From contig NZ_CP116967.1 in NCBI RefSeq assembly GCF_032050975.1, positions 4,337,001 to 4,401,000 on the forward strand: 64,000 nt of DNA, given 5' to 3'. This DNA is from Candidatus Nitrospira allomarina (GTDB lineage Bacteria; Nitrospirota; Nitrospiria; Nitrospirales; UBA8639). Positions 12,284 to 50,239 of the stretch are shown here, piece after piece. The notes under the pieces are model-generated. The model was not told the origin of the DNA, made no database searches, and saw only the letters and a list, made by a program, of their open reading frames with translations. Position 1 is the stretch's first letter; every line of letters starts with the position of its first letter. The translations under genes were made by a program, and so were the position numbers.

Positions 12284-13048
12284 CTATTTCACAAGAAAGT
12301 CGACAATATCATTCCAGCTTTTCAATGTGCCGATGATCGTCGGCTCTCCGAGTTGAACATTGAAGATATCCTCACGAACCATCCGCAATGCAATGACCAG
12401 GTCATTGAAATCCACCAGATTGTTGGTTTCAAATATGGTGAGGAAATCCACATCCGAGATCCCGGTGGAATGGTACAATTTCCGCTTCACCGTTTTTAAA
12501 TAAGCAACCGTGGGAATGGTGTGTTCTTTCATCAGCGCCACACGATCCTCTTTGGACAAGTTCCACCATTCAGCATTTTTCCGAATGGGGATCATAATCG
12601 CATAGGTAGATGGATCACCCTCGTACTTCGCCCCTTTCAATTGTTGAAGCAAATCAGGAAAATCCGGAGCATAATTCAGCCCCTTGGTCACCCCACTGAT
12701 CGTGTACTCCAAATCCAAATGCCGGCCAAGACCGGTACTCCGAAGTTGGGTCAGTAATTGCTGGTTGGCTTTGAGTTCAGCAGAATGCAGCCGAAGCAAA
12801 AAATGGGATTCTGTCGTCAATCCATAGGTCCAATAGCCATCCACGGTCACCTGACTTTTGAATGCCTCCAACAGAGCTTTGGCCTCCTCCCCGCCTTTCT
12901 GCCTTTCCTCCATCGGCAAATCCTTCCAATCTTTATCCACCTCATAAAGGGCAAAGGTCCCGAACACAGGAGCATCGGCGGCCCAGCTTAAACCAGACAA
13001 ACCAAATTGCACGACCGCGAAGAACAACCAGGATAGTAATACAGGCAT
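12284..13048 (-). CDS. cld: Periplasmic chlorite dismutase, Nitrospira type
   Basis: A 254-residue haem b protein that decomposes chlorite to chloride and O2. The signal peptide ends near SWAADAP. The catalytic set known from Nitrospira Cld is conserved by motif: proximal haem-ligand His176 in KEHTIP, distal Arg189 in VKRKLYHSTG (13 residues later, as in the family), Lys157 with Trp161-Trp162 in RKNAEWW, and Glu226 near VREDI. Length is close to characterised Nitrospira enzymes (about 260). The start was placed at 13048 because AAGGAG lies just upstream; longer forms lack a signal at the N-terminus. It is a single-gene unit among other small exported-protein genes. Physiological chlorite exposure is unclear; related proteins may serve detoxification. 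Confidence 0.93.
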   Translation of the reverse strand: MPVLLSWLFFAVVQFGLSGLSWAADAPVFGTFALYEVDKDWKDLPMEERQKGGEEAKALLEAFKSQVTVDGYWTYGLTTESHFLLRLHSAELKANQQLLTQLRSTGLGRHLDLEYTISGVTKGLNYAPDFPDLLQQLKGAKYEGDPSTYAIMIPIRKNAEWWNLSKEDRVALMKEHTIPTVAYLKTVKRKLYHSTGISDVDFLTIFETNNLVDFNDLVIALRMVREDIFNVQLGEPTIIGTLKSWNDIVDFLVK

Positions 13049-35665: not shown

Positions 35666-37750
35666 ATGTCTCCCGACCGGAGGCAACAACATCAGGACAC
35701 CCCACCTCCCCTACACACCCCTATCCTGCCACAGGTCGTAGATTTTGGCCGAGAAATTTGCGGCGATTTGTGGCTGTCCGAACGACGGGAATGGCTCGTC
35801 ACCAACGGCATCGGCGGGTTCGCCTCCGGCACCGTGGCGGGTTCCCTGACCCGACGGTATCACGGTCTGCTCCTCGCCGCCCTCAAGCCCCCCCTCGGAC
35901 GCACCCTGTTGGTCAGTAAACTGGAAGAAACTGTGGAGTACCAGGAAAAAATCGTTCAGCTCTCCACCAACCATTGGCATAGCGGAACCGTGTCGCCAGC
36001 GGGATTTGTATTCCTGGAACGCTTCCGCCTGGAAGGCACGACACCCGTCTGGACCTTTGCCATCGGCAACGCATTAGTAGAGAAGCGCATATGGATGGAA
36101 AAGGGTGAGAATACGACGTACGTGAAATACTCCTTCACCAGAGGATCGCTTCCGATTCGCCTCAATCTTCGAGCCTTCATCAATCACCGGGACTACCATG
36201 GCATCACGCTGGACACGCTCCCGGAATTTTCAACCACTCCCATCCCGCATGGACTACAGATTCTACCCGCAGAAGGTTCTCCGTTTATTCTATCTGCCTC
36301 GGGAGGATCGGTTGAAGCCGTCCATATGTGGTACCACGATTACGATCTGCCCCTCGAACGGGAACGGGGACTTCCCGATCGCGAACATCATCTGCACATC
36401 GGCACTTGGATTCTCGACTTGAAACCCGGCGAAGAGATCATCTGGATGGCCAGCACCCGTCTTAAGCCATCCAGACCCTCCGCTTCGTGTTTCGAATTAC
36501 GCCGACGTCATGAAATGGCTTTGCTCCATTCGGAACCCACCGCAACACAGTCACACCCAAGTTGGCCGGACTGGATCCAACAGCTCACGTTGGCCGCCGA
36601 TCAATTTATCGCCTCACGTTTCCTGACCCCTCACAACACCGGTCATACGGTCATTGCCGGTTATCACTGGTTTGGGGATTGGGGCCGGGACACGATGATC
36701 AGCCTGCCGGGACTCACCCTGACCACCGGGCGTTTTGACGTCGCTCGCAGCATTCTTTCCACATTTGCACAATATGCCAATCAAGGCATGCTGCCCAACC
36801 GATTCCCCGACGCAGGGGAAGAACCGGAATATAACACCGTTGATGCAACGCTCTGGTATATTGAAGCCGTCCGCCAATATGTGGACGCCACCGATGATCG
36901 CGCCTTTCTCAAAACGATCTTTCCCGTGCTTATCGAGATGCTGGCGTGGTACCGCAAGGGCACCAGATTTGGAATCGGTATGGATCCCGCCGATCACTTA
37001 CTTCATGCCGGAGAGCCGGGCGTACAGCTCACCTGGATGGATGCCAAGATCGGAGACTGGGTCGTGACTCCGCGGATGGGCAAACCGGTCGAGATCAATG
37101 CGCTGTGGTACCAAGCCTGGCTCACCCTGGGGCAATTGGCCAGGACCATGAAAGAACCACACGAGGAATTTCTACACATAGCCAAGGCCGTCCACACATC
37201 CTTTCAACGGTTCTGGGATGAACGATTACACCGATGTTATGACGTGCTGGACGGACCGCATGGCCATGATCCGGCCCCACGCCCCAATCAATTGTTCGCC
37301 GTGTCCCTGCCAAATAGTCCGCTCACCTACAAACAGCAACATGCTGTTGTGGATTATTGCGCCCGACATCTCTACACCTCTTATGGGTTACGCAGCCTGG
37401 GGCAGGAAGATCCCCAATACGTAGGACAATATGAAGGAGATATCCGGCAGAGGGATGGCGCCTATCATCAAGGCACCGTTTGGGGCTGGCTACTCGGTCC
37501 TTTTGTGCTGGCACACTTTCGGGTCTATCGCAATCCCGAAGCTGCTCGATCGTATCTTGCATCGATGGCTCATCATCTCAACGATTACGGACTGGGAACG
37601 CTGGGAGAAATCTTTGACAGCCAGCCGCCGTTCGCGCCACGTGGCTGCATCGCCCAAGCCTGGACCGTGGCCGAAATCCTCCGCGCCTGGCATCTCATTC
37701 ACCCGTCCACCAACAAGCTTAGAACAGAAAAACCCACTCCCCAAAAATAA
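35666..37750 (+). CDS. Amylo-alpha-1,6-glucosidase (glycogen debranching enzyme, GDE)
   Basis: A 694-residue enzyme with a bacterial GDE N-terminal domain (LVTNGIGGFASGTVAGSLTR, RRYHGLLLAAL) and a C-terminal GDE catalytic barrel (GYHWFGDWGRDTMISLPGL, NRFPDAGEEPEYNTVDATLW, TWMDAKIGDW, EIFDSQPPFAPRGCIAQAW). It hydrolyses alpha-1,6 branch points of glycogen. AGGAG precedes the ATG. It is the second gene of an operon with the GH63-like glucosidase. Its last 40 codons and the repeat that follows recur as remnants at 39.9 and 44.6 kb. Confidence 0.92.
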   Translation: MSPDRRQQHQDTPPPLHTPILPQVVDFGREICGDLWLSERREWLVTNGIGGFASGTVAGSLTRRYHGLLLAALKPPLGRTLLVSKLEETVEYQEKIVQLSTNHWHSGTVSPAGFVFLERFRLEGTTPVWTFAIGNALVEKRIWMEKGENTTYVKYSFTRGSLPIRLNLRAFINHRDYHGITLDTLPEFSTTPIPHGLQILPAEGSPFILSASGGSVEAVHMWYHDYDLPLERERGLPDREHHLHIGTWILDLKPGEEIIWMASTRLKPSRPSASCFELRRRHEMALLHSEPTATQSHPSWPDWIQQLTLAADQFIASRFLTPHNTGHTVIAGYHWFGDWGRDTMISLPGLTLTTGRFDVARSILSTFAQYANQGMLPNRFPDAGEEPEYNTVDATLWYIEAVRQYVDATDDRAFLKTIFPVLIEMLAWYRKGTRFGIGMDPADHLLHAGEPGVQLTWMDAKIGDWVVTPRMGKPVEINALWYQAWLTLGQLARTMKEPHEEFLHIAKAVHTSFQRFWDERLHRCYDVLDGPHGHDPAPRPNQLFAVSLPNSPLTYKQQHAVVDYCARHLYTSYGLRSLGQEDPQYVGQYEGDIRQRDGAYHQGTVWGWLLGPFVLAHFRVYRNPEAARSYLASMAHHLNDYGLGTLGEIFDSQPPFAPRGCIAQAWTVAEILRAWHLIHPSTNKLRTEKPTPQK

Positions 37751-37756
37751 AGAGAT

Positions 37757-37875
37757 CTTGTCATGCTGAGGCCATGCCGAAGAATCTGATCCCAGGCTGA
37801 AGATTCCACAGCTCAGCGAGATCCTCTCGGTGCCCCAAGGATGACATGATCGCTCAGGACATATGGGCTTCCCTT
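37757..37875 (+). repeat. Dispersed inverted-end repeat, copy 3
   Basis: Starts seven bases after the debranching-enzyme stop: CTTGTCATGCTGAGGCC, GCCGAAGAATCTGA, CAGCGAGATCCTCTCGG and CAAGGATGACATGATCGC. It is the closest relative of copy 8 (44902), sharing the GGCCATGCCGAAGAATCTGA block and the CGCT(C/T)AGGAC extension. Confidence 0.75.
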
Positions 37876-38269
37876 GGTCACTCACCTAGGAATCCACCTC
37901 CGTCATCCACGGCATTGATTATCCCTATTCCCCCCTTTTTCTTCTTTTGCATTTGTCCTTCTTCAATTTATCGCAATCCGTCGGCTTTATTGCGCACCAT
38001 GGGGGGTTGCGCCTGAAGAGTTTCCTTTTTTATGTCGTGCTCACAGATTAGGCACTCCCATCCCTCTGATCCGGGAATGGGGGGTTATCAGCCATCTTTC
38101 GGATTCATTTTATTGAAAGTGAGCAATTTTGACCAGAATTCTGCATGTCTTCTTGCCAAAATAGTTGCCCTTCAATGCCCAAAAACCACTACCCGATCTC
38201 ACGGAACCCCGAGCGTTCCTTATCGGAAGGGTACACACTATGGCCGCATATTTTCAAAAAGGAATAGGG
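37876..38269. other. Intergenic region before a sensor kinase
   Basis: With the repeat, about 520 non-coding bases follow the debranching-enzyme gene. The kinase promoter must lie here but was not placed. Short frames on both strands are not gene-like. Confidence 0.5.
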
Positions 38270-39484
38270 ATGCAGTTCAAAGATAACAAAGGCATATTGG
38301 ACGGTCATGTGCATCTCTTTCTCTCGGCCTCTTCACACATAAGTCCTACCAAGATCATCCATCAGGTGGACCCCAAACAGCTCAAGCGGCAATGTGATGA
38401 ATGCTTCATTCTGATCGGGAATGCCGGGGGGAATATTCTTTTTATCAATTCACGAATAGAGGAATGGTTCGGTTATACCCGCAAGGAGTTAATCGGGAAA
38501 CCCCTTGCATGTCTTATTCCAGGACAATTTCGAGTCCAACAGACCGACGAGCGTGTAGACTTCGTATTGACACCACACTGCGAGTCCATGGAACACGAAC
38601 CTGAGTTTCAGGGACGTGGGAAAAACGGGAGGACCATTCCCCTCCAAATCAGCCTCGAATCGATGGGGAAGGAAAACAATGAAGCGACTTTGGTGACGAT
38701 GACGATTATCACCGAACGCAAACGGGTCAATTCTCAAAAACGGTTGCGGGAGATGGCCGCCGACCTCAATTTAACCGAACAACGCGAACGACAACGCATT
38801 GCAATGGAACTCCATGATTATCTCAGCCAACTGTTAGTGGTGTGCCGCTTGAAGCTGACCCAGACCATGCAAGTCCTCAAACCTGAAACTCAGGAGCTCA
38901 ATCTTATCAAAGAAACTGACGATATCCTCGATCAAGCCCTCACCTATTCCAGAACGCTCGTTGCGGAGTTAAGCCCCTCGGTGTTATTTGAATTTGGATT
39001 GCTGGCGGCTTTGAAATGGTTAGCCGGTCAAATGATCCACCATGGACTGAATGTGACAATGACTTGTGCGGGCATTCAGGACCTGAATGTGCCTGAAGAT
39101 AAGGCGATTTTATTGTATCAATCCACCCGTGAACTGTTTTTCAATGTCATGAAACATGCCGGTACCAACCGCGCCACTCTCACACTTGGCAAGGAGGAAG
39201 GAGTGTTACGCATTACCGTGGGGGATGAAGGGAAGGGGTTTCATTCAACCAAAGGAACAGCTACCCCTTTCACGGAACAATCGATGAAATTCGGACTATA
39301 CTCCATACGCGAACGCATGATCAGTCTTGGGGGATCATTCGCAATTGAGTCACAGCCTACACACGGAACCCTGGCTACCCTCCTATTACCCTTATCACTG
39401 AAGGGAGAAATCCATTCAGGACTACACCAGGACCCACCTGGCAGCTCACCAAGCACCTCCTCCTCCCTCAGAGCTACTCTCTGA
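38270..39484 (+). CDS. PAS sensor histidine kinase, HisKA_3 (NarX) type
   Basis: A 404-residue soluble kinase: one PAS domain (about 40-150; ILIGNAGGNILFINSRIEEW, EWFGYTRKELIGKPL), a HisKA_3 dimerisation helix with MELHDYLSQLL (His182) and an HATPase domain (VGDEGKGFH, KFGLYSIRERM). No receiver is attached, so a separate NarL-type regulator is needed. Its PAS and kinase parts are near copies of those in the larger kinase at 45621-48827, also at DNA level, so it is a truncated paralogue. The start at 38270 has AAGGA six bases upstream; an ATG at 38240 is also possible. Confidence 0.9.
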   Translation: MQFKDNKGILDGHVHLFLSASSHISPTKIIHQVDPKQLKRQCDECFILIGNAGGNILFINSRIEEWFGYTRKELIGKPLACLIPGQFRVQQTDERVDFVLTPHCESMEHEPEFQGRGKNGRTIPLQISLESMGKENNEATLVTMTIITERKRVNSQKRLREMAADLNLTEQRERQRIAMELHDYLSQLLVVCRLKLTQTMQVLKPETQELNLIKETDDILDQALTYSRTLVAELSPSVLFEFGLLAALKWLAGQMIHHGLNVTMTCAGIQDLNVPEDKAILLYQSTRELFFNVMKHAGTNRATLTLGKEEGVLRITVGDEGKGFHSTKGTATPFTEQSMKFGLYSIRERMISLGGSFAIESQPTHGTLATLLLPLSLKGEIHSGLHQDPPGSSPSTSSSLRATL

Positions 39485-39619
39485 TCAATCACACCTCTGA
39501 ATCAATGGTCCGAAAAAATATCCCTATGTAAAATGAGGTAAAAAAATTTAATTTAGGTCTTTTGATGACCGTTGCCGCGAGTGTGTCCACTGGAAGTTCT
39601 CGTGGCAAGAGCTAATGAA

Positions 39620-39777
39620 TAATACAATTTGATCTGCACAATCTTGGGATGAGTAGCCTAGGATGAAGTCGGTTGTGATGACGGAGTAGATCGGCTTTGT
39701 CCGATCCCGTTTAGCTTTGTCTAATCGGAATAGGAGTCATCAGACCTTTACTTAATAAAAGATAGGGGAAAATTTGA
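39620..39777 (+). repeat. Duplicated kinase upstream region
   Basis: Non-coding DNA similar to about 45470-45620, the region just upstream of the large kinase gene. Shared pieces include CAATTTG-x-TCT-x-CACAAT, GATGAGTA, TGTGATG and GGCTTTGTCC followed by TAATCGGA. It leads into the kinase N-terminal remnant, so a promoter plus 5' gene end was duplicated. Confidence 0.6.
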
Positions 39778-39894
39778 GCACTGATTTCCGTGATACGGGA
39801 TTGGAGACCTGTTGGGAGGAAATATGGCGCTACATGGGAGCCTGTCCGCCTTTTTTTTTTGGCCAGCCCCCGAGCCGGTCTTCGCCCCGCTAAG
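39778..39894 (+). pseudogene. N-terminal remnant of the large PAS kinase gene
   Basis: Aligned with 45621-45740, the DNA reads as GATACGGGATTGGAGACC, then the counterpart of LWEEIRRFMGVCPSFF, broken by a run of nine or more T that shifts the frame, then CCAGCCCCCGAGCCGG (counterpart of SPEP). No ORF survives for the kinase. It is directly joined to the debranching-enzyme remnant that follows. Confidence 0.75.
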
Positions 39895-40018
39895 ATGTAT
39901 CGTCCAAGCCTGGACCATCGCCCAAGTTCTCCGCGCCTGGCATATCATTAACCTTCCGCCAACAGGGAAACACAAGAAAGACACACTCCCAAATAATAAG
40001 ACTAACTTGGCATCCTGA
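39886..40018 (+). pseudogene. C-terminal remnant of the debranching-enzyme gene (copy 2)
   Basis: Translates as CIVQAWTIAQVLRAWHII followed by a Lys-rich tail to a stop at 40016-40018. The intact enzyme at the matching place reads CIAQAWTVAEILRAWHLI. It is fused in frame-shifted context to the kinase remnant upstream and is followed, 15 bases after its stop, by a dispersed repeat, just as in the intact gene. Confidence 0.78.
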
Positions 40019-40032
40019 TAGTCCCCTTTAAA

Positions 40033-40110
40033 ATTGTCATTCTGAGCCATGGCGAAGAATCTGGCCCCGGCCTGTAGATACCAAAACTCAGCGAGACCCT
40101 TTCCTTTCCG
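40033..40110 (+). repeat. Dispersed inverted-end repeat, copy 4 (left part)
   Basis: ATTGTCATTCTGAGCCATGG then CGAAGAATCTGGCCCC and CTCAGCGAGACCCTTTCC. The right end with GGATGACA is missing. Confidence 0.65.
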
Positions 40111-40951
40111 CAGATGCCCCTTTCAACCATTGTTTTCTCTCCCACATCCATCCTCAAATGCTCCTCAATTTAATCGGGGCTTAACGAATTTGAAGAAAAT
40201 AGATGTTTTATCTATAGTGCTGTACACAACCGGCGGGAGGCACCGTCATGGTGAGGGTGCCATAACGCTGGATCGTGATGGACCAGATGCAGGACGGACG
40301 GCCCGCCGCCAACGCACTCATGGCCGATTCACCACACACCGGCAATGGTTTTGTCCAGCCGTCTCTCCTTAGCCACAAGGTAGCCTTATTCTTCAAGACC
40401 ATGCAGACGGAGGCCTTGGCGGCCGCGAGCCCGACGTTCCAGCTCTCCTCCTTTCTCATCAGTCGACCTCATAAGGTTGGCGTCCCCATAGCCAACACTC
40501 CGAGTCCGGATACCGGCCAAAGTGGTGTGTCATCCGTTACGATAATGAAAATCTTATGCACTGGTGCGGACGTGTGGGTTGAGAAGAGCGCTTCCATTTC
40601 CTACCCATTAATACTTTTTCCGGGTTGCATCGTTTGGCAAACTTGCGGCTGACATATTCGCGGTCGAGGAATTGATTGATAGAGAGATTATCAAAATTTA
40701 GTCAGTTCATTCCGGGATTTGCACGGCCCTCATCTTATAAGGCAGTTGATTTGGACCAATCTGAACAACACGCGGGTCTGCCTCCGGCTCATCGGAATAT
40801 TCCGTAAAATCTGATGAGCCAAGTATTGCAAAGACATTGAGTATTTCACACAGCTCTCCAAGGGCGAAACTGAAAGAAAGGGCCGACTTGTACTGCAACT
40901 GAATCAATGAGCGCGTAATACATCGATAACACCTCAGCTATAGGTTCTAAC
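40111..40951. other. Long region without a convincing gene
   Basis: About 840 bases of apparently decayed DNA. A minus-strand frame at 40208-40459 and a plus-strand frame at 40275-40652 overlap each other; neither has a ribosome site or a recognisable domain. A short start-less frame ending at the TGA near 40580 reads RYDNENLMHWCGRVG, perhaps a gene relic. I see no function here beyond the probable promoter of the next gene. Confidence 0.5.
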
Positions 40952-43483
40952 GTGGTGCAGCAGACTGAATCAGCGGGGTTAACCCTACGCAACTTTTTCT
41001 TGGCACTCGTCAAGACCAAGGAAGACAGTCCGCAGCTCCATGAATCTGAATCTTACACAAATTGGTGCATCCGGTTTGCCTGGGAACGTCTCACCGTTCT
41101 CTATCTTTTGGGATTAGTCGCCAACCCTGCGTTTATTGTAGCCGACGTCCTCCTTCATCGAGAGCATCTCGATGCAATCCTCGACATACGCATGATTTTA
41201 GAGTTGGGGCTCTTCGGCTGTTTTTTACTCGTGAGATACCAACCTGCTGCCGTCTCACCAAACGTGCTTTTAGTCCTTTGGGTATTGATTGGCAATCTGT
41301 GCATCGTCCAGATGACCGTCGTGCTTGGGGGATTCACGGCCCAGTATTACAACGGGCTCAATCTCGTGTTCCTGGCTGCAGCGGTCATTGTGCCGGTGTC
41401 CTGGCCAAGTCATCTGATCGCCCAAGCGGGCACGCTTGTGTCGTATTATGGGCTGAATCTTCTCAATCCTTCTGTGACGGCTGATATCGATGCAGCCATT
41501 GAGAACTCGTTTTTCCTCGTATGGACCTGCGTCGCCTTACTTTTCTCGGTTTCCCTCTACGAACGACTGCAGCGGGCCGAATTTCAAGCACGGCTCTTTG
41601 AGCGCAGGGCAAGGGTTGAATTGGAGACGTCCAACCAAAAACTTCTCGAACTGGATCGGTTGAAAAGTGAGTTTTTCGCCAATATCAGCCATGAAATTCG
41701 CACCCCGCTCACTCTGGCCGTGGGTGCATTTAAGACTCTTTTGAAATCTTCACTCGGCGCAGAAGCCAAAGATGTGGTCCAGACCGGCTTACGGAATGCC
41801 TCCAGGCTTCTGTTCCTCATCAATGAGTTGCTGGACCTGGCTAAATTCGACAGCGGTCGCACCACTCCGAACAAACGGTGTATGGATTTCGCTGCGCTCG
41901 TGAGCAGTGTGGTTATGAACTTCGATTCCAGCCCGACTCGTCGCATCCATGTGAAAGGCCTGATGCAACCGGTGGCCTTGGAGGCCGATCCACTCCAAAT
42001 GAAAAAGGTTCTGTATAACCTGCTCTCCAACGCCTTCAAGTTCAGCGATCCCCATGAGGGCCAGGTGTGGATTCGTCTCTCCTCCAAGGAACATTCCATC
42101 GAACTGGAGGTTGAAGACAACGGCATCGGCATTCCACCCGATCAATTGGGGCGAATCTTCGACCGATTCACTCAAGTGGAAAGCAGTGCCACGAGGCGGT
42201 ATGAAGGCAGCGGGATCGGATTGGCCTTGGTGAAGGAAATCGTTATGCTGCATGGGGGAACAATTGCGGTGGAAAGCAACCCCGACCGTGGTTCCGTATT
42301 TACGATCACGTTGCCTCGCGGGAACGTGCCCGCTGATCAGGTGCTTGCCATTCAAGACGACGAGGAGAACCGGGACGTTCTTCCCAGACCAGCCGAAGAC
42401 GAACACAAAGACGATGAGTCTTTCCTTTCCCCCGCTGAAAAAATGGACGCCCCATTGGTGTTGGTGGTCGATGACAATGCCGATATGCGCGGGTACGTCA
42501 AAAAAATATTGCACAGACAATATCAGATCGTGGTAGCCAGGGACGGGGCGGAAGCCCTGGAGATGGCTCAACACGTGCGCCCGGCATTGATCCTGACAGA
42601 TGTCATGATGCCGAAAATGAGCGGGCAGGACCTTTTGAAAGCCGTTCGAAGCGATAAGACTCTTCGATCGACCCCCGTGATTTTCTTAACAGCCCGCGCC
42701 GGGACCGAAGCACGCATTGAAAGTCTGGAAGCCGGAGCCGACGATTATTTGTCCAAACCCTTCGACGAACCGGAACTCCTGGCTCGCGTCGGCAACCTGA
42801 TTCGAGCACGTGCACAAGAACGGGAACTCGTTCAGTTACAGAAAGAAAAATTAGCCAGGTTCTTACCCCAAAATCTGGCCGACATGATCATGTCGGGCGA
42901 CCACGAGGATTTCCTGAAAGGGCATCGCAGCAAAATCACCGTAATCTTTATCGATCTTCGAGGATTCACACCCTTTACTGAAACGGTGGCTCCCGAAGAG
43001 GTGATGGCCGTCCTCCGTGAGTACCAGGCCGCGATGGGTTACCTGATCTCCGAATATGGCGGAACACTTGAGCGATTTGCCGGCGACGGCATCATGGTCT
43101 ATTTCAACGACCCGCAGCCCTGTCCCAATCACGCCGAACAAGCGGTGCGCATGGCAATTGCCATGCGCCAAGAAGTCCTTTCGTTAGAAGAGCAATGGAA
43201 GAAACGCGGCATTCCCCTCGGAGTAGGCATCGGTATTGCGACCGGATATGCAACGATCGGTGCGATCGGATTTGAAGGACGAACGGACTATGCCGCGATC
43301 GGCCCCGTCACCAATCTGGCATCCAGACTCTGCAACGAGGCCCAGCACGGCCAAATCCTGGTCCCGGAACAGATCGCCTTTCTTCTTGGAAAACTGATCT
43401 CGACCGAACCTGTCGGGGAACTCGCATTGAAAGGCATTCAAAGGCCTCTTTCCGTCTATCAAGTGATCGGATTAAAAGCCTAG
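40952..43483 (+). CDS. Membrane hybrid histidine kinase fused to adenylate/guanylate cyclase
   Basis: An 843-residue protein. Residues 45-210 hold about five to six hydrophobic membrane segments (VLYLLGLVANPAFIVADVLL, LGLFGCFLLVRY, VLLVLWVLIGNLCIVQM). Then a HisKA/HATPase core (SHEIRTPL, His246; DNGIGIPPDQ; GSGIGLALV), a receiver (LTDVMMPK, Asp550), and a class III nucleotide cyclase domain (about 645-840) with both metal aspartates, Asp668 in VIFIDLRGFT and Asp712 in FAGDGIMVYF, 44 residues apart as usual, plus GPVTNLASRL. It probably converts a phosphorelay signal into cAMP. The GTG at 40952 is the first start; no clear ribosome site is seen. Confidence 0.92.
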   Translation: MVQQTESAGLTLRNFFLALVKTKEDSPQLHESESYTNWCIRFAWERLTVLYLLGLVANPAFIVADVLLHREHLDAILDIRMILELGLFGCFLLVRYQPAAVSPNVLLVLWVLIGNLCIVQMTVVLGGFTAQYYNGLNLVFLAAAVIVPVSWPSHLIAQAGTLVSYYGLNLLNPSVTADIDAAIENSFFLVWTCVALLFSVSLYERLQRAEFQARLFERRARVELETSNQKLLELDRLKSEFFANISHEIRTPLTLAVGAFKTLLKSSLGAEAKDVVQTGLRNASRLLFLINELLDLAKFDSGRTTPNKRCMDFAALVSSVVMNFDSSPTRRIHVKGLMQPVALEADPLQMKKVLYNLLSNAFKFSDPHEGQVWIRLSSKEHSIELEVEDNGIGIPPDQLGRIFDRFTQVESSATRRYEGSGIGLALVKEIVMLHGGTIAVESNPDRGSVFTITLPRGNVPADQVLAIQDDEENRDVLPRPAEDEHKDDESFLSPAEKMDAPLVLVVDDNADMRGYVKKILHRQYQIVVARDGAEALEMAQHVRPALILTDVMMPKMSGQDLLKAVRSDKTLRSTPVIFLTARAGTEARIESLEAGADDYLSKPFDEPELLARVGNLIRARAQERELVQLQKEKLARFLPQNLADMIMSGDHEDFLKGHRSKITVIFIDLRGFTPFTETVAPEEVMAVLREYQAAMGYLISEYGGTLERFAGDGIMVYFNDPQPCPNHAEQAVRMAIAMRQEVLSLEEQWKKRGIPLGVGIGIATGYATIGAIGFEGRTDYAAIGPVTNLASRLCNEAQHGQILVPEQIAFLLGKLISTEPVGELALKGIQRPLSVYQVIGLKA

Positions 43484-43530
43484 TTGCCATTCTGCGGTCC
43501 CGCCGAAGAATTTGAGGCCAGCCCTAACAC
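43484..43530 (+). repeat. Dispersed inverted-end repeat, copy 5 (fragment)
   Basis: A degenerate left end, TTGCCATTCTGCGGTCC then CGCCGAAGAATTTGAGG, starting directly at the stop of the cyclase gene. Confidence 0.5.
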
Positions 43531-43895
43531 GTCCTCGTCTCCCAGAACGCCTTCTTTTCCTTAATCCCTAAACTTAAAAAAATATCCCCCTCCGTCATCC
43601 CCGATATCAGTTATCAGGGCTCCATCTTTTGGACGGAGCCTGACCTGTAAAGAATTTGGCAGAGGAAGAAAAAACTCCTGTCCGAATATTCCTCAGGCCC
43701 ACCTGTCATTTTTTCTAGTGGTTGGGTATCATGCCCTGGAATTTTTCCATGAGAAAGGCACAAGTAATCATCCATCCCGTCACGAGTTTGATCTCATGGG
43801 CAAAAGTTAAAACTTCATCGCTTAAATTCGCAACGATCGCCTGCACAATGGCCTCACGGCTAACACCAAAGCAGAGAGACAAGGAGTAGAGACAA
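43531..43895. other. Intergenic region with a hairpin
   Basis: No gene. A hairpin CAGGGCTCC / GGAGCCTG spans about 43616-43642, with an AT-rich stretch before it; it lacks a T tract. AAGGAG just before 43896 is the ribosome site of the methyltransferase gene. Confidence 0.5.
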
Positions 43896-44546
43896 ATGGA
43901 TCCACAATTTTGGATAACAGCCTGGAACGAAGGAAGAACAGCCTTCCACGGGGAACACTATCACGAAAAACTGACGGAGTACTTTCCCCGATTCAATCCT
44001 GAAAAGGGGCAGAGAGTACTCGTTCCACTCTGCGGGAAATCAAAAGATCTTCTTTGGCTTCATAGGCTCAATCTCCATGTCCATGGAGTCGAATTGCATG
44101 CCCAGGCCGTGAAGGAATTTTTTTCAGAGAATGGACTCTCCTCCCCTCACATAACCCAAGATCAAGATTTTACCCATTACACCCACGAAAATATCATCAT
44201 CAGCTGCGGGGACTTTTTCAAACTCAATGAACACCACACCTACGACTACATTTACGATCGGGCAGCACTCGTGGCTCTACCACCCCCAATGAGAAAAAGG
44301 TACGCGCAAGTTATCAAGCAATCCCTTAAACAGGGGGGGAAATACCTTCTCATCGTCTATGATTATGACCAATCAAAAATGGAGGGGCCTCCCTTTCATG
44401 TTGGTGGCAAAGAAATTCATGAACTGTACGAAGATCAGTTCACTATTACATTGAAAGAAAGCCAAAAGCCAAAAAATGAAGGAACAAGACTCTCCGCAAT
44501 AGACAGCCTTCACCAGACAGTCTACGTCCTTGAAAAGATCCGGTGA
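43896..44546 (+). CDS. tpm: Thiopurine S-methyltransferase
   Basis: A 216-residue SAM-dependent methyltransferase of the TPMT family: WITAWNEGRTAFHGE at the N-terminus, the SAM motif VLVPLCGKSKDLLWL, HGVELHAQAVKEFF, and YDYIYDRAALVALPPPMRKRY. Bacterial TPMTs methylate selenium, tellurium and thiol compounds as well as thiopurines. AAGGAG precedes the ATG. The gene looks recently inserted relative to the surrounding debris: its stop lies eight bases from a debranching-enzyme remnant. Confidence 0.93.
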   Translation: MDPQFWITAWNEGRTAFHGEHYHEKLTEYFPRFNPEKGQRVLVPLCGKSKDLLWLHRLNLHVHGVELHAQAVKEFFSENGLSSPHITQDQDFTHYTHENIIISCGDFFKLNEHHTYDYIYDRAALVALPPPMRKRYAQVIKQSLKQGGKYLLIVYDYDQSKMEGPPFHVGGKEIHELYEDQFTITLKESQKPKNEGTRLSAIDSLHQTVYVLEKIR

Positions 44547-44553
44547 CACTCCC

Positions 44554-44685
44554 CGCCCAATTGGCACCTTCGAAAAAATCTTCGACGGACAACCATTTTT
44601 CGTCTCGCATAATTGCCTCACCCAACCCTGGCCCCCCGCCCAAACCCTCCACGCCTGGCAGATCATCCAGACAGTCCTCACCTAA
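44554..44685 (+). pseudogene. C-terminal remnant of the debranching-enzyme gene (copy 3)
   Basis: A start-less frame ending at TAA 44683-44685 reads IGTFEKIFDGQPFFVSHNC then LTQPWPPAQTLHAWQII. The intact enzyme reads LGTLGEIFDSQPPFAPRGC then IAQAWTVAEILRAWHLI. The remnant is more diverged than copy 2 and, like the others, is followed by dispersed repeats. Confidence 0.75.
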
Positions 44686-44710
44686 GTTATCCTTCCGATC
44701 CCACCGCGGC

Positions 44711-44791
44711 GTTTTCATTCTGCGCCAGCGGCGAAGAATCTGTGCCCAGCCTGAGGATGCCACAGCTAACCAAGATCCTCCGGCTCCCTCC
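44711..44791 (+). repeat. Dispersed inverted-end repeat, copy 6
   Basis: GTTTTCATTCTGCGCCAGCG, GCGAAGAATCTGTGCCC, then CAAGATCCTCCGGCTCC. First of three tandem copies; the GGATGACA end is lost. Confidence 0.68.
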
Positions 44792-44806
44792 TGTAGTTCA
44801 AACCCG

Positions 44807-44885
44807 CTTGTCATTCTGAGCCAGTGGCAAAGAATCTGTGCCCAGCCTAACGAACTCTCGCCCCACCAAGATTATTTAGTTCCCT
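44807..44885 (+). repeat. Dispersed inverted-end repeat, copy 7
   Basis: CTTGTCATTCTGAGCCAGTG, CAAAGAATCTGTGCCCAGCC, then a decayed right half (CCAAGATTATTTAGTTCCC). Confidence 0.65.
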
Positions 44886-44901
44886 AATACAGTCCCCCAC
44901 C

Positions 44902-45040
44902 TTGTCATTCTTAGGCCATGCCGAAGAATCTGAGCCCAGGACGAAAAGCCCCACGGCTCAGCAAGATCCTTCGGTGGACCTTGCCCTGAGCTTTGCCGAA
45001 TGGGTCAGGATGGCATGGTCGCTTAGGACAAATGCCTTTC
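44902..45040 (+). repeat. Dispersed inverted-end repeat, copy 8 (long form)
   Basis: CTTGTCATTCTTAGGCCATG, CCGAAGAATCTGAGCCCAGG, CTCAGCAAGATCCTTCGGTG, then TTTGCCGAATGGGTCAGGAT and a GGCATGGTCGCTTAGGAC extension shared with copy 3. The GAGCTTTGCCGAATGGGTCA block is also in copy 1 (GGGCTTTGCCGGATGGGTCA). Confidence 0.75.
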
Positions 45041-45620
45041 GTTGATTGCTCACCATTGGCAAAGATTCTGGCGCTTGGCTGGACACTCAATTGAAAATTT
45101 GTCGGGCAAGTGCGTGCCACATTCCCTATACAAAATTGGGCTTGTGGCTCCTCTTATATCTACTGTCTCGTGACTTCCACCCAGGCCACAGCATGTTGGG
45201 CAGGAACCACGGTCACCCTCATTTCACCTTTTTCACTGTAAGTCAAAAGGGAGCTTAATCTTACATTAGGCCACAGCGGATGCCTTAACAAACACATCCC
45301 CCTCTCCCAAAACTTCTTTCGATACATCACTTCCCTGCCTCAAATGTAAAAAATGTCTCAACTCAGTACCTGTACAAAATGGGCTAAAAAAACTCGATAC
45401 CGATCTTTGCTGACCCGGGGAGCGAGTGCATTCCCTGGACTTTTAATGACACCAACCCCTTATCGATTCAATTTGTTCTCCACAATTTTGAAGATGAGTA
45501 CCCTGGCATGGATTCGGATGTGATGGATGTGGCAGCTTGGCTTTGTCCAATCTCCTCCAAGCCTTGTATAATCGGACTAGAAAACGCCCGTTACCATTTC
45601 ACCAAAATTAGGAATTAAAG
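45041..45620. other. Upstream region of the large PAS kinase gene
   Basis: No gene is seen in 580 bases. The last 150 bases (about 45470-45620) are the intact counterpart of the duplicated upstream region at 39620-39777, which suggests that they contain the kinase promoter. Confidence 0.55.
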
Positions 45621-48600
45621 GTGACCCCTAATACCCGGGATACCGGTTTAGAAACTCTTTGGGAAGAAATCCGCCGATTCATGGGAGTCTGTCCGTCCTT
45701 TTTCCGGTTGGCCAGCCCTGAGCCGATCGTCGCCCGGGGCCTTTTCGATCTGGCAAAATTCGCCTATCTTGAAAGCCCTCTCCCCTCAAGCTTCAAGGAA
45801 AAGCTCTTCACCTATCTCTCCCGATTCTGCGGGGTTCGGTATTGCGTCACACGACATGCCGCATTTTTGTTGGGACGAGGGAACATCGCCGGCGACCCAA
45901 CCTGTCCTCCTCTTACCCCTGAGGAAGTCATCACCTTGCTCAGCGAGCCGTTTCCTGAGGGCGAACAACTTTCCGATATTCTGTCCGCCCTTGGAACCAT
46001 GAGTACTCCCCTCAAGGCCTCGCCGGCTCACGATTCGATGGTGGAGCGACACCTGCGCATCGCCTGTGCGATGATTTTTCTGGAACCCGGGCGCTCCACC
46101 GCATGGTGCGCTGCCCTTCGGCGACTTTTGGGATCTTCGCAATTCGAATGGCTTCTGCTTTTCCTCGCCTTTGTGCGGACCGCGCATTTTTGGACGGAAG
46201 TTCATGCATCGTATGGTGCCATGATACCGATGGCGAGTGAACAGCCTTCCCCCGGGGATGATGCCGTCATCGATCAGACTCCTCAACTGGTTTTTGAAGA
46301 GGACATAGAAATTCTCTTTCGAGAGCAACAAGCACTGGTCGAACCTCTCTTGCAGAGAATGCAGGACGCCACACGATTCGAACTGGGATCACAGCTCCAT
46401 GCAGAGTTGCAGGAATTACGCACCACTCACCGGCTCGCACAAGCCTTGAAAAAAAGTGAAGCCCTCCTTCGCGACTTGTACGAGAATGCCCCGGATATGT
46501 TTTGCTCCGTTGATGCCGAGACAGAGCGCGTTGTTGAATGCAATCGAACCCTTCTGGAAAAAACCGGGTTTTCCCGCGAGGAGATCATCGGCAGATCTGT
46601 TTTCGAACGGTATACCAAGGCCTCCCTCCCAAACGCCCGGAAATCCTTTGAACACTTCCGCCAATATGGAGTCGAGCACAATGCCGAATTGCAATTGCGA
46701 ACTCGTGAAGGAAAAACGATTGATGTCAGCCTGAATACCACGGCCGTGCGTGATGCGTCGGGACAAATAATCTCCAGCCGCTCGATCTGGCGGGATATCA
46801 GCCAACAGAAATCCCTTGAAGACCAACGGCGCCTCATATTTGAAGCCTCCCCGAATGGCATGCTGGTTGTGAACCAGAGGGGAACCATTCTTTTTGCCAA
46901 TTCACGAATAGAGGAATGGTTCGGGTATCCCGGAAAAGAGTTAATTGGAATGCCATTAGAAGGGCTTATTCCCGGGCAATTTCGAGTTCAGCCGGCCGGC
47001 GAGCGTTTTGACTTCGTATTGATTCCCTGCGTCGAATCCATGGAACCCGAGCCTGAGTTTCGTGGGCATGGTAAAGACGGAAGGACCATCCCACTCACAA
47101 TCAGACTCGATCCGATGGGGAAGGAAGACGAGGAATCGACATTGGTGACGATGACAGATATCACCGAACGCCAACGGGATAGGGAAGCCATTCGCCAATC
47201 GACCATCGCGCTTCATGAACAATTGGCTCTCAACAAAACCATCACCGATAATACCTCAACCAGCCTGCTTATGATTGATACCGCCGGACGAGTGACCTTT
47301 GCCAATCCATCCACGGAAATCGTGATGGGGTTCAAACCTGAAGAGCTGATTGGCCGGGTATTGCATGAAATGGTCCACCATACCCGTCCAAATGGTTCCC
47401 CATTTCCAATAAAAGAATGTCCCCTGGCCGGGCTATCTCCCTTAAGAGAGACTCTGACCAATCATGAAGACGTCTTTATCCATAAAGATGGCCATTTTTA
47501 TCCTGTACGCTGCAACACGAGGCAGATTTTCAAGCAAGGGGAGCGGATAGGTAACGTCATCGAAGTTCTGGATATCACAGATCTGCAACGTGCCGAGAAG
47601 GACCGGCAACTTTTTACGCTGGAACTGGCGAAACAGGTCAATGATCGAACTGAGGAGCTTGTCAATTCTCAAAAACTATTACGGGAATTAGCGGCCGCCC
47701 TTAATTTGACCGAACAACGTGAACGGCACCGTATTGCGACGGAACTTCATGATTACCTCAGTCAACTATTAGTGGTGTGCCGCTTGAAATTGGGCCAGAT
47801 CAGACCCGCCCTTGGCCTGAACGCTGAGAGCTCCGGTCTGGTCAAAGAAACCGAAGACGTCCTCGATCAAGCCCTCACCTACACCAGAACGCTCGTCGCG
47901 GAATTAAGCCCTTCGGTCTTATTTGAATTTGGATTGCTGGCCGCCTTGCAATGGTTGGCCGGTCAAATGATCCATCATGGGCTGAAAGTGGAAATGACCT
48001 GTGAGGGCATTCAAGACTGGAAGGTCCCGGAGGAACAGGCGATTTTATTGTATCAATCGATCCGCGAACTGTTTCTCAACGTGATAAAACATGCCGACAC
48101 GGACCGTGCCACGCTCACACTTGGCAAAGAGGAGGGGGTGTTACGTATTTCCGTCCGCGATGAGGGTAAGGGGTTTCATCCACCCAAAGGAACTGCCACA
48201 CAGCCTTTCACGGACCAGGCAATGAAATTTGGCCTCTTCTCCATTCGCGAACGCATGATTACCCTTGGAGGAACATTCGAAATTGAATCACTACCTGATC
48301 ACGGAACCACGGCCCGCCTCATTGTACCCATTGCATTAAAACTGGAAAAGGGTTCTACACCACAACAGGATTCGGACGGGCAGTACATCGATCAACCCAC
48401 GGACGATCAATCTCTACCGGAGGAAGGCAATCTCCCAAAGATCCGCACAAAAAACCACATTCGCATTCTGATCGTCGATGACCATGTGATGGTGCGGGAG
48501 GGCTTAAGGAATATGTTGGAGAGCCATGAAGATCTGGAACTGGTAGGGGAAGCCGGGAACGGCGAGGAAGCCATCGATTTGGTAGAACGCCTGAAACCTG

Positions 48601-48827
48601 CCCTGGTGATCATGGATGTCAATATGCCAAAACTGAATGGCATTGAAGCCACATCCCGGATAAAAGCCCATCATCCGGATATCAGTATTATCGGATTATC
48701 TGTCAATGCCGGTGGAGAAAATCAACGAGCAATGCTCAAGGCCGGAGCGGTCGCCCTCTTGCCCAAAGAAGCTGCTGTCGCCGATCTCTATCAAATGATT
48801 ACAACCGTCATGACGTCACGGCCATGA
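45621..48827 (+). CDS. Hybrid PAS kinase with an AhpD-like N-terminal domain
   Basis: A 1068-residue soluble protein. The first 170 residues look like an AhpD/carboxymuconolactone-decarboxylase-type helical fold, with PEPIVARGLFDLAKFAYLES and a Cys-x4-Cys-x3-His motif in RFCGVRYCVTRHAAFL. Then come three PAS domains (about 280-400, 405-525 and 540-660), a HisKA_3 core with ELHDYLSQLL (His710), an HATPase domain (DEGKGFHPP, KFGLFSIRERM) and a NarL-type receiver (VIMDVNMPK, Asp999) without a DNA-binding domain. The thiol/histidine motif suggests a redox input (inference). It starts at a GTG preceded by AGGAATTAAAG. The central PAS and kinase region is a close paralogue of 38270-39484. Confidence 0.9.
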   Translation: MTPNTRDTGLETLWEEIRRFMGVCPSFFRLASPEPIVARGLFDLAKFAYLESPLPSSFKEKLFTYLSRFCGVRYCVTRHAAFLLGRGNIAGDPTCPPLTPEEVITLLSEPFPEGEQLSDILSALGTMSTPLKASPAHDSMVERHLRIACAMIFLEPGRSTAWCAALRRLLGSSQFEWLLLFLAFVRTAHFWTEVHASYGAMIPMASEQPSPGDDAVIDQTPQLVFEEDIEILFREQQALVEPLLQRMQDATRFELGSQLHAELQELRTTHRLAQALKKSEALLRDLYENAPDMFCSVDAETERVVECNRTLLEKTGFSREEIIGRSVFERYTKASLPNARKSFEHFRQYGVEHNAELQLRTREGKTIDVSLNTTAVRDASGQIISSRSIWRDISQQKSLEDQRRLIFEASPNGMLVVNQRGTILFANSRIEEWFGYPGKELIGMPLEGLIPGQFRVQPAGERFDFVLIPCVESMEPEPEFRGHGKDGRTIPLTIRLDPMGKEDEESTLVTMTDITERQRDREAIRQSTIALHEQLALNKTITDNTSTSLLMIDTAGRVTFANPSTEIVMGFKPEELIGRVLHEMVHHTRPNGSPFPIKECPLAGLSPLRETLTNHEDVFIHKDGHFYPVRCNTRQIFKQGERIGNVIEVLDITDLQRAEKDRQLFTLELAKQVNDRTEELVNSQKLLRELAAALNLTEQRERHRIATELHDYLSQLLVVCRLKLGQIRPALGLNAESSGLVKETEDVLDQALTYTRTLVAELSPSVLFEFGLLAALQWLAGQMIHHGLKVEMTCEGIQDWKVPEEQAILLYQSIRELFLNVIKHADTDRATLTLGKEEGVLRISVRDEGKGFHPPKGTATQPFTDQAMKFGLFSIRERMITLGGTFEIESLPDHGTTARLIVPIALKLEKGSTPQQDSDGQYIDQPTDDQSLPEEGNLPKIRTKNHIRILIVDDHVMVREGLRNMLESHEDLELVGEAGNGEEAIDLVERLKPALVIMDVNMPKLNGIEATSRIKAHHPDISIIGLSVNAGGENQRAMLKAGAVALLPKEAAVADLYQMITTVMTSRP

Positions 48828-48955: not shown

Positions 48956-49366
48956 ATGACTATGAATCTGCTGCGAATGATGATCGGCGTTTCTTTGGGT
49001 GTTGTGCTCTTCGCGGGAACCGGATTTGCCACAGAACCGGCCGAAGTGGAGAAATATGTGAAGGCCCGTATTGAGATCGGCGAGATGATGACGAACTACT
49101 TTAAGGGTGGCAAAGGATACGGAGAGGGGCAGCGGCCGTCACCAGAAGCCATGAAGGAAATGGGTGCGGATATCAATACAAAACTCATTGCGTTATTGGC
49201 CAAGCATGATTTGACGATCGAGGAATATCGCCAGCGCAGCCCTGAGGTCTTTGCCGATGATGCGGCCGTGCAGGGGTATCTCAATGAGCATCCCGATCTG
49301 AAAGTACGCTACGATGCCCTTCCACTGGGCAGCATAAAGGGCGGGAGTACCGGCCGGGGGTACTGA
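48956..49366 (+). CDS. Small exported protein
   Basis: A 136-residue protein with a signal peptide (RMMIGVSLGVVLFAGTGFA, cleavage before TEPAE). The mature part is helical and charged, with a Gly/Lys-rich loop (NYFKGGKGYGEGQRPS) and no recognised domain; it ends in a Gly-rich GGSTGRGY. AGGAAATC precedes the first ATG; a second ATG six bases on is equally possible. It is downstream of the kinase gene by about 130 bases and may be separate. Periplasmic location inferred, function unknown. Confidence 0.72.
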   Translation: MTMNLLRMMIGVSLGVVLFAGTGFATEPAEVEKYVKARIEIGEMMTNYFKGGKGYGEGQRPSPEAMKEMGADINTKLIALLAKHDLTIEEYRQRSPEVFADDAAVQGYLNEHPDLKVRYDALPLGSIKGGSTGRGY

Positions 49367-49468: not shown

Positions 49469-50239
49469 GATGCCAATCCGTTTTCCCATCGACACACAAT
49501 TGAAGGAGGGTTCGGCCTTGCGATTGGCGCTGGCCGAACCCCAAAGATATCCAATTGCTTCGCCAGCTGTACAACGTAATTGTCGACGAAGGGACTTCCT
49601 TTCCCCATGAGCAGATGCCATCCGATGAAGAATTTCAGGCCTATTGGTTTGGAGGCTGTGGCACCGTGGTGGCTTTTGCCCAGACCGGAACTGGTTCCTT
49701 GGAACTGGCCGGAGCCCATTACGTAAAGGGTCTGTTGAAAAAAGTCGCCAGCGGCGTTCTCGCCATTTTTCCGTGCTCACGTACTAAGCGCACGCTCCGC
49801 GCGAAAAAACGGCTGCGGCCTTGCTGGACGGACTTTTTTGAACCGACCCGGAGCCATTGCTGAGTAATCTAATCCTGGGCAAATTTGTCCTTGAAAATCT
49901 TATTTATTCAACACTCCCGTGAAAGCGAATTGGCCGGGCCGGGAAAATCACATTGCCAACGCGGGATTTATCGTCGCGCCCGAATGGCGGGGGAAAGGGC
50001 TAGCCCGTCTCCCTGGAGAGACTATGTTGGATCATTCCCGTTTCCTCGGCTTTCGAAGCGTGATTTTCAACCTGGTGTTTTCGGAGAATCACGTGGCACA
50101 TCGTCTGTGGACGCAATTGGGCTTTCGTGAACTCGCCACCCTCCCCCAAGCGGTGCGCAAGAACGACGGAACCTACCAGGATGCCCGTATTCTGTTCCGG
50201 TCACTCTGTGACGACAGCCACCTGCCCGATCGCCCTTGA
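49469..50239 (+). pseudogene. GNAT acetyltransferase gene, frameshifted and interrupted
   Basis: Three pieces in different contexts make one GNAT protein. Codons from 49469 read PIRFPIDTQLKEGSALRLAL; a one-base shift in the ACCCC run near 49540 leads to LLRQLYNVIVDEGTSFPHE through LELAGAHYVK (to about 49727); after an inserted 122-bp element and about 70 further bases the frame resumes at ANWPGRENHIANAGFIVAPE, with the acetyl-CoA motif RGKGLARL and LGFRSVIFNLVFSENHVA. The gene cannot give a normal product. Confidence 0.82.
49728..49849. mobile_element. 122-bp inverted-repeat (MITE-like) element
   Basis: Ends GGGTCTGTTGAAAAAAGTC and GACTTTTTTGAACCGACCC are inverted repeats with 17 of 19 matches. 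The inside (GCCAGCGGCGTTCTCGCC through CGGCCTTGCTGGAC) is GC-rich and partly self-complementary. It carries no gene and sits inside the GNAT gene. No clean target duplication was seen. Confidence 0.75.

Follow-up and report, generated by a model that had tools for sequence, protein, structure and literature searches.

Detached 3′ ends of a glycogen debranching enzyme gene as probable recombination scars at a gene-gain site in Candidatus Nitrospira allomarina

Short copies of the 3′ end of a glycogen debranching enzyme gene (GDE) lie detached from the gene at two downstream sites in the 64,000-nucleotide stretch of the Candidatus Nitrospira allomarina chromosome analysed here, which is referred to as the window. 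We interpret these detached tails, with a probability of about three in four, as recombination scars at a gene-gain site that lies downstream of GDE and is bounded on its far side by a conserved gene, E. This reading builds on the joints at which tails are fused to other genes, the ancestral gene order, a mosaic GDE flank, the loss of codon constraint in the tails and their confinement to one interval. The comparison includes a GDE search of 59 relatives of the window genome (G000). Several of the relatives are fragmented MAGs, and one of them, G018, holds two versions of the region.

The Intact Gene and Its Detached Tails

The GDE gene of the window is intact and encodes a protein of 694 amino acids (35666..37750, + strand; Pfam GDE_C 4.8e-121 and GDE_N 4.7e-73). 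The part that recurs downstream corresponds to residues ~637-694 (37574-37750, + strand), a putative recombination patch of about 180 bases (178 bp) that is called the tail. Detached tail 2 (39887..40001) and detached tail 3 (44556..44687), which starts ~10 nt past the stop codon of a TPMT gene, are on the same + strand as GDE. In a tblastn comparison of GDE with the window, tail 2 is matched at 39872-39970 with 60.6 % identity (E 3.8e-8) and tail 3 at 44560-44667 with 44 % identity (E 6.5e-6), and no tails other than these two were found. They are also the only detached tails in the whole 4.55-Mb single-contig genome (E 2.4e-7 and 1.6e-4), from which the 59-aa tail alone used as query recovers them at E 1.4e-9 and 1.6e-6. 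The best local tail scores in the two intergenic stretches are 114 and 94, against maxima of 62 and 57 in 1000 dinucleotide shuffles, none of which (0/1000) reaches either observed score. These results confirm the preliminary description of the window, made from the sequence alone, in that GDE tail remnants are real at two downstream sites, that the GDE homology of tail 2, placed there at ~39886, begins near 39887, and that each remnant is followed by a copy of a dispersed repeat (40034..40112 behind tail 2 and three tandem copies at 44712..44981 behind tail 3, + strand; repeat search and, for the former, self-comparison). The possibility raised there that the tails might fall below significance is removed by the shuffle scores.

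Apart from the locus studied here, the genome contains a second full-length GDE-like gene (G000:C1:2614556-2616592), which is 42 % identical and carries one in-frame TAG, while its counterpart in G010 is open.

Gene Content of the Interval in the Window

Between GDE and gene E (48956..49366, a conserved 136-aa protein), the window contains four genes assigned by Pfam and one gene remnant, all on the + strand. The first gene is K1 (38165..39484), a PAS-HisKA_3-HATPase sensor kinase paralogous, in shortened form, to the C-terminal part of K2, with which it shares ~80 % identity in two blocks (38428-38726 with 46879-47178, and 38726-39391 with 47661-48329). The upstream region and 5′ part of K1 are collinear with a kinase, K, located after CYCK in relative G010 (locus L144, 9558-10532, 81 %). 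K1 appears to be functional, judging from its dN/dS of 0.31 against kinase K and its lack of internal stops. Behind K1 lies the remnant of a second copy of K2 (39530..39887), comprising the K2 upstream region and first ~38 codons. Its part just before tail 2 (39622-39887) is 71 % identical to the corresponding region of K2 (45466-45735), and the remnant is 68 % identical to L144 17710-18030. Because this K2 sequence stands directly before tail 2, the tail marks the point at which a copy of K2 was cut off and fused to a GDE tail. The remaining genes are CYCK (40952..43483), a histidine kinase - receiver - adenylate/guanylate cyclase whose close version occurs, among the 59 relatives, only in G010, G014 and G018 besides G000; TPMT (43896..44546), a thiopurine S-methyltransferase-family gene (Pfam 4.4e-62); and K2 itself (45621..48827), a multi-PAS histidine kinase with a C-terminal receiver. 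Versions of this TPMT with at least 90 % identity are found only in G000, G012, G014 and G018, and the TPMT homologues of other relatives are 36-43 % identical and located elsewhere in the genome.

This arrangement does not agree with a repeated unit of tail, repeat, kinase upstream region and kinase, as had been proposed. In self-comparison, nothing before K2 matches the upstream region of K1 (37838-38427), and the upstream region of K2 type stands before tail 2, not after it.

Ancestral Order and Distribution of Tails in Relatives

GDE stands immediately next to E in two genomes that are outgroups at a GDE identity of about 77 %. In G009 (L152), the repeat (3717), E (4036-4443) and PNPOx (4798) come in this order behind the end of GDE at 3656, and in G001 (L155) E begins ~225 bp past GDE. 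The comparison gives GDE - repeat - E - PNPOx as the ancestral order, with E as the ancestral right neighbour of GDE. Across the order, 28 of the 59 genomes have gene E, among them genomes without GDE. The GDE-E interval measures 11.2 kb in the window, ~15 kb in G010, 11.1 kb in G014, 5.1 kb in G011 and 4.5 kb in both G017 and G027; given the adjacency of GDE and E in the two outgroups, 11-15 kb has accreted between them in the larger intervals.

Detached tails occur in four of the 59 relatives (G010, G012, G014 and G018), on the same strand as GDE and ~3-6 kb behind it where both share a contig. Gene contents differ between these loci while the tails recur. The order in G010 is GDE - CYCK - decayed tail - K - tail - ... 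- K2 - E, that in G014 is GDE - CYCK - tail - TPMT - tail - DUF3800/162 aa - K2 - E, and a short contig of G012 carries GDE - TPMT - tail. The joint between TPMT and tail 3 in the window is also present in G012, G014 and G018. Tail 2 and its flank (40001-40466) correspond in position to the native GDE 3′ end of G010 and G014, where CYCK follows (L144 5948-6506 corresponds to window 39896-40466 with 76 % identity, and L145 5189-5336 matches with 85 %). A search of 20 genomes of the genus found no detached tail outside the GDE-E interval, the other matches being the ends of second GDE-like genes. The tails had been described as parts of a scattered module, but in this genome and in its relatives they are confined to the space between GDE and gene E.

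The interval of several relatives contains candidate defence genes. In G011 it holds adjacent HamA and HamB genes of a Hachiman anti-phage system (L154 1741-5888; PADLOC E 6e-99 and 0), which makes the site also a defence-gene hot spot. A RhuM-like gene in the G010 interval (L144 16349-17164) matches the PADLOC candidate PDC-S23/S05. A pair formed by a DUF3800 gene and a 162-aa gene is common to G014 and G017 (L145 8475-9667, - strand, and L150 6029-7221), and in G014 both genes match the PADLOC candidates PDC-M04A/B. At the other flank of the interval, G010 carries a 5′ fragment of gene E (residues 1-26; L144 17454-17546) just upstream of K2, with the full E downstream. This mirror-image scar suggests that K2 entered by a similar event.

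The Dispersed Repeat

In addition to the copies behind tails 2 and 3, the repeat search located one copy behind GDE (37757..37837, + strand), which has further sites in the genome, and another directly behind CYCK (43484..43541, + strand). That all tails of the window are followed by the repeat, and that the repeat is multi-copy in the genus, would fit a mobile element that transduces an adjacent gene tail, an idea contained in the preliminary description. However, blast detects the repeat at ~ten or more further chromosomal sites, none of which has a GDE tail; these sites were counted from looser blast matches because the repeat is too diverged for a strict 46-nt pattern, which with 3 mismatches allowed finds two sites only. 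Moreover, the tails stay within the GDE-E interval, the joints are not at repeat ends, two of the four folded repeat copies are without strong structure (z of 1.4 and -0.9 for these two; -1.4 and -2.1 for the others), and the scanned interval genes include no recombinase or transposase. Transduction by the repeat is therefore improbable.

A different dispersed element of ~195 bp is present between E and PNPOx of the window (49724-49918). It is 88-91 % identical to L150 14546-14740 and 17186-17376, and the ORF fragments that flank it resemble an interrupted gene.

A Novel Joint Between Gene E and the GDE Tail

In three relatives (G010, G014 and G018), at four loci, a truncated gene E (E′) is fused to a GDE tail. 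The joints are located at 12284/12297 in L144, 8487/8491 in L145, 3820/3824 in L147 and 1398/1402 in L148. In G014 and G018 this scar stands behind CYCK, where the window has the repeat copy at 43484..43541. In the joints, the GDE part starts from TATCTCAA(N)GAT; the bases to the left of this point are of the E type, those to the right of the GDE type. Across the fusion zone, the sequence is TATCTCAAYGAGCA in E and CATCTCAAYGATTA in GDE; E supplied the T on the left, and GDE the GATTA on the right. The two genes share the match ATCTCAAYGA, of 10 nt with one C/T variable position, at GDE codon 637 and E codon ~108. Both states of this position are seen in both genes among genomes, and wherever E and GDE have the same state an exact match of 10 nt exists. 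In the E/GDE pair of the window, which has C in GDE and T in E, the exact run is now just 7 nt; in G014 it is E that carries C and GDE that carries T. Among all breakpoint pairs of the window E and GDE, runs of 8, 9 and 10 nt have frequencies of 1.6e-4, 1.2e-5 and 0. The occurrence of the four joints at one place suggests a single founding event. The fusion probably represents the novel joint of a tandem duplication, or that of an imported fragment which paired through homology on just one of its sides. In G010, E′ has a stop and a weakened codon bias, and it branches outside the clade of the window genome, G010, G017 and G004, which implies that the event is old or that the donor came from another lineage; the E′ copies are too old to tell duplication from transfer. 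Because the window retains no such joint, the origin of tails 2 and 3 is deduced from the relatives.

An intact gene on the left, a same-strand displaced 3′ end on the right and an edge that is constant at residue ~637 in four loci are also the geometry expected from site-specific integration, in which the GDE 3′ end would be an attachment site and an integrase-borne element would restore the gene end and leave the old one at its own far end, in the manner of islands that target tRNA genes or gene ends. However, what adjoins the constant edge on its left belongs to the coding sequence of E, the native neighbour, and is no element end, which is why the attachment-site reading of this edge was dropped. 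Furthermore, the left edges of the tails vary, from residue ~637 in the E′ joints to ~642 behind the TPMT stop (tail 3 in the window) and ~658 behind K2 codon ~38 (tail 2), and Pfam detects no integrase, recombinase or transposase families in the larger interval ORFs of G000, G010, G011, G014, G017 and G027. Integration of this kind is therefore quite unlikely.

The same joints bear on the view that full-length GDE paralogues existed at each site and were truncated by simple deletion, which had been named as a result that would overturn the preliminary description. The tails are in or nearly in frame in several relatives, and tail 2 retains a recognisable protein match, as decaying paralogues might. 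Yet the E′ joints leave no space for a GDE body, which rules this origin out for those copies. For the others it is very improbable: tail 2 corresponds in position to native GDE 3′ ends of G010 and G014, and no tail in the genus was found to have GDE sequence from upstream of residue ~634 beside it.

Loss of Codon Constraint

Native GDE tails differ from each other nearly always at third codon positions (1/1/17 differences at positions 1/2/3), whereas tail 2 differs from GDE by 10/6/9 (Fisher p 5e-4) and tail 3 by 15/10/16 (Fisher p 2.5e-4). The detached tails are without codon constraint. The reading of the tails as small functional genes, in which an added C-terminal GDE peptide is under selection, draws on open frames of 60-83 aa in relatives and on the in-frame ATG that starts the TPMT-linked tail in G012, G014 and G018, but is hardly credible given the lost codon-position bias, the frameshift common to G014 and G018 in that tail and the change of its ATG to ATT in the window, and an ATG-started mini-gene was rejected on the same three grounds.

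Exchange, Collapse and Lateral Movement

Several loci carry signs of later exchange between copies. The GDE 3′ flank of G010 (L144) is a mosaic, which is of the tail-1 type first (55/60, 59/60 and 53/60 identical positions) and then of the type of the tail-2 flank (38/42 and 53/59). This is consistent with a crossover in tail or repeat between two copies of the kind present in the window, by which the K1 unit would have been deleted. In G017, the sequence directly behind GDE is the 2.2 kb found behind the last detached tail in G010 (L150 3502-5724 is collinear with L144 12297-14525 over 2251 bp, 86 %), an order that would be as expected if the array collapsed there or never formed. In the GDE tree, G017 falls inside the tail-bearing clade with moderate support, next to the window genome and G010 on DNA (94/96) and elsewhere on protein (81/80). 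The CYCK-linked tail of G018 (contig C315) is 89 % identical to the GDE tails of its own lineage but 81-85 % identical to its CYCK-linked orthologues, which would fit conversion or an exchange of units; trees of the tails, with about 177 columns, are poorly resolved. The unequal recombination proposed in the preliminary description thus gains support from the E′ joint, the mosaic flank of G010 and the collapse-like order of G017.

Gene blocks seem to have moved between species. Between the window and G014, dS is 0.21 for K2, 0.23 for TPMT and 0.26 for CYCK, against 0.56 for GH63, 0.76 for GDE and 0.60 for E in the flanks, where GH63, GDE, E and PNPOx together range over 0.45-0.76. Since CYCK, TPMT and K2 are far less diverged between species than the flanks, these blocks are likely to have moved laterally, and lateral exchange of the interval interior appears to be the simplest reading, although the low dS of CYCK and TPMT could be due in part to rates specific to these genes; K2, by contrast, has a dS of 0.21 against G014 but 0.80 against the nearer relative G010. 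The DUF3800 gene pair of G014 and G017, in turn, was most probably exchanged recently, with a dS of 0.10 for DUF3800 against 0.59 for GDE.

Proposed Sequence of Events

In the proposed explanation, the segment from the GDE tail to gene E would have been added once more in an ancestor or donor lineage, with one join at the ATCTCAAYGA motif shared by GDE and E that produced the fusion of E′ to a GDE tail. Two alternative routes could lead to this join. With a second copy taken from the same chromosome, the event would be a tandem duplication; with one from a relative, a related fragment would have paired with GDE on the left and been joined illegitimately on the right, which amounts to homology-facilitated illegitimate recombination. 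The copies are too diverged for the two routes to be separated. By either route, GDE would keep a full 3′ end while the older 3′ end is displaced downstream as a scar, and GDE would stay intact because later crossovers fall within the tail or the repeat. The tail (178 bp) and the repeat would subsequently provide homology for unit deletion, reordering and exchange between species, which in this genome may have left K1, the K2 5′ remnant, tail 2, CYCK, TPMT, tail 3 and K2. From these patterns we infer the enzymology, the donor and the exact order of events, including that of the K1 unit. K1 precedes CYCK in the window, whereas K follows CYCK in G010, and additional steps of duplication and deletion or of reinsertion are thus needed.

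Relation to Known Systems

A literature search returned no paper on the GDE-E locus. We class the tails as a new case of recombination scars of an established sort, here at a hot spot of gene gain, generated by a mechanism of known type. Tandem duplication with a join point at short homology, followed by amplification and remodelling, has been described in the part of the work of Reams and Roth relayed in PMC8763031. Remodelling of amplified segments by secondary deletion has been documented experimentally in E. coli amplicons (PMC8763031), and duplications with microhomology borders are also on record (PMC11111574). The GDE-E locus resembles such tandem duplications in the novel joint at a short match, the same-strand copies, the deletions within units and the exchange through duplicated homology. 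It differs from experimental duplications in that the copies are fossils across species, that the genes are also mobile between species and that no selection experiment is involved.

Displaced 3′ ends and arrays are likewise found in the T6SS clusters of V. cholerae and in Rhs loci, for which homology-facilitated illegitimate recombination has been proposed (PMC5361080). The shared features are successive insertions anchored on one side, the displacement of the old 3′ end as a remnant and the later transfer of arrays by homologous recombination. However, the displaced part in T6SS and Rhs arrays is a variable effector end, and an immunity gene is retained with it; at the GDE-E locus the conserved end of a housekeeping enzyme has been displaced, selection does not maintain the scars, and a duplicated piece of E, the native neighbour, makes up the left half of the joint. 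As in islands that target gene ends, the target gene survives whole, with a copy of its 3′ end at the far edge; unlike in integrase islands, no integrase was found among the genes scanned, a host gene supplies the left half of the joint and there are several edges.

Meaning for the Host Group

In a broader and tentative reading, which we consider possible but well short of probable, the GDE 3′ end would serve as a standing, recombinase-free landing patch, at which gene blocks, signalling genes and anti-phage systems among them, build up time and again in the GDE-E interval and are exchanged between species, with each gain leaving a countable scar and GDE being spared by crossovers inside the tail or repeat. 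The scars form a readable record of gene build-up at one chromosomal spot without an integrase in this group of nitrite-oxidizer-like bacteria. Since their breakpoints stay the same from species to species, it is possible to reconstruct in which order duplication, exchange and collapse took place. Unannotated gene fragments can thus reveal a gene-gain hot spot, which in relatives holds Hachiman and other candidate defence genes.
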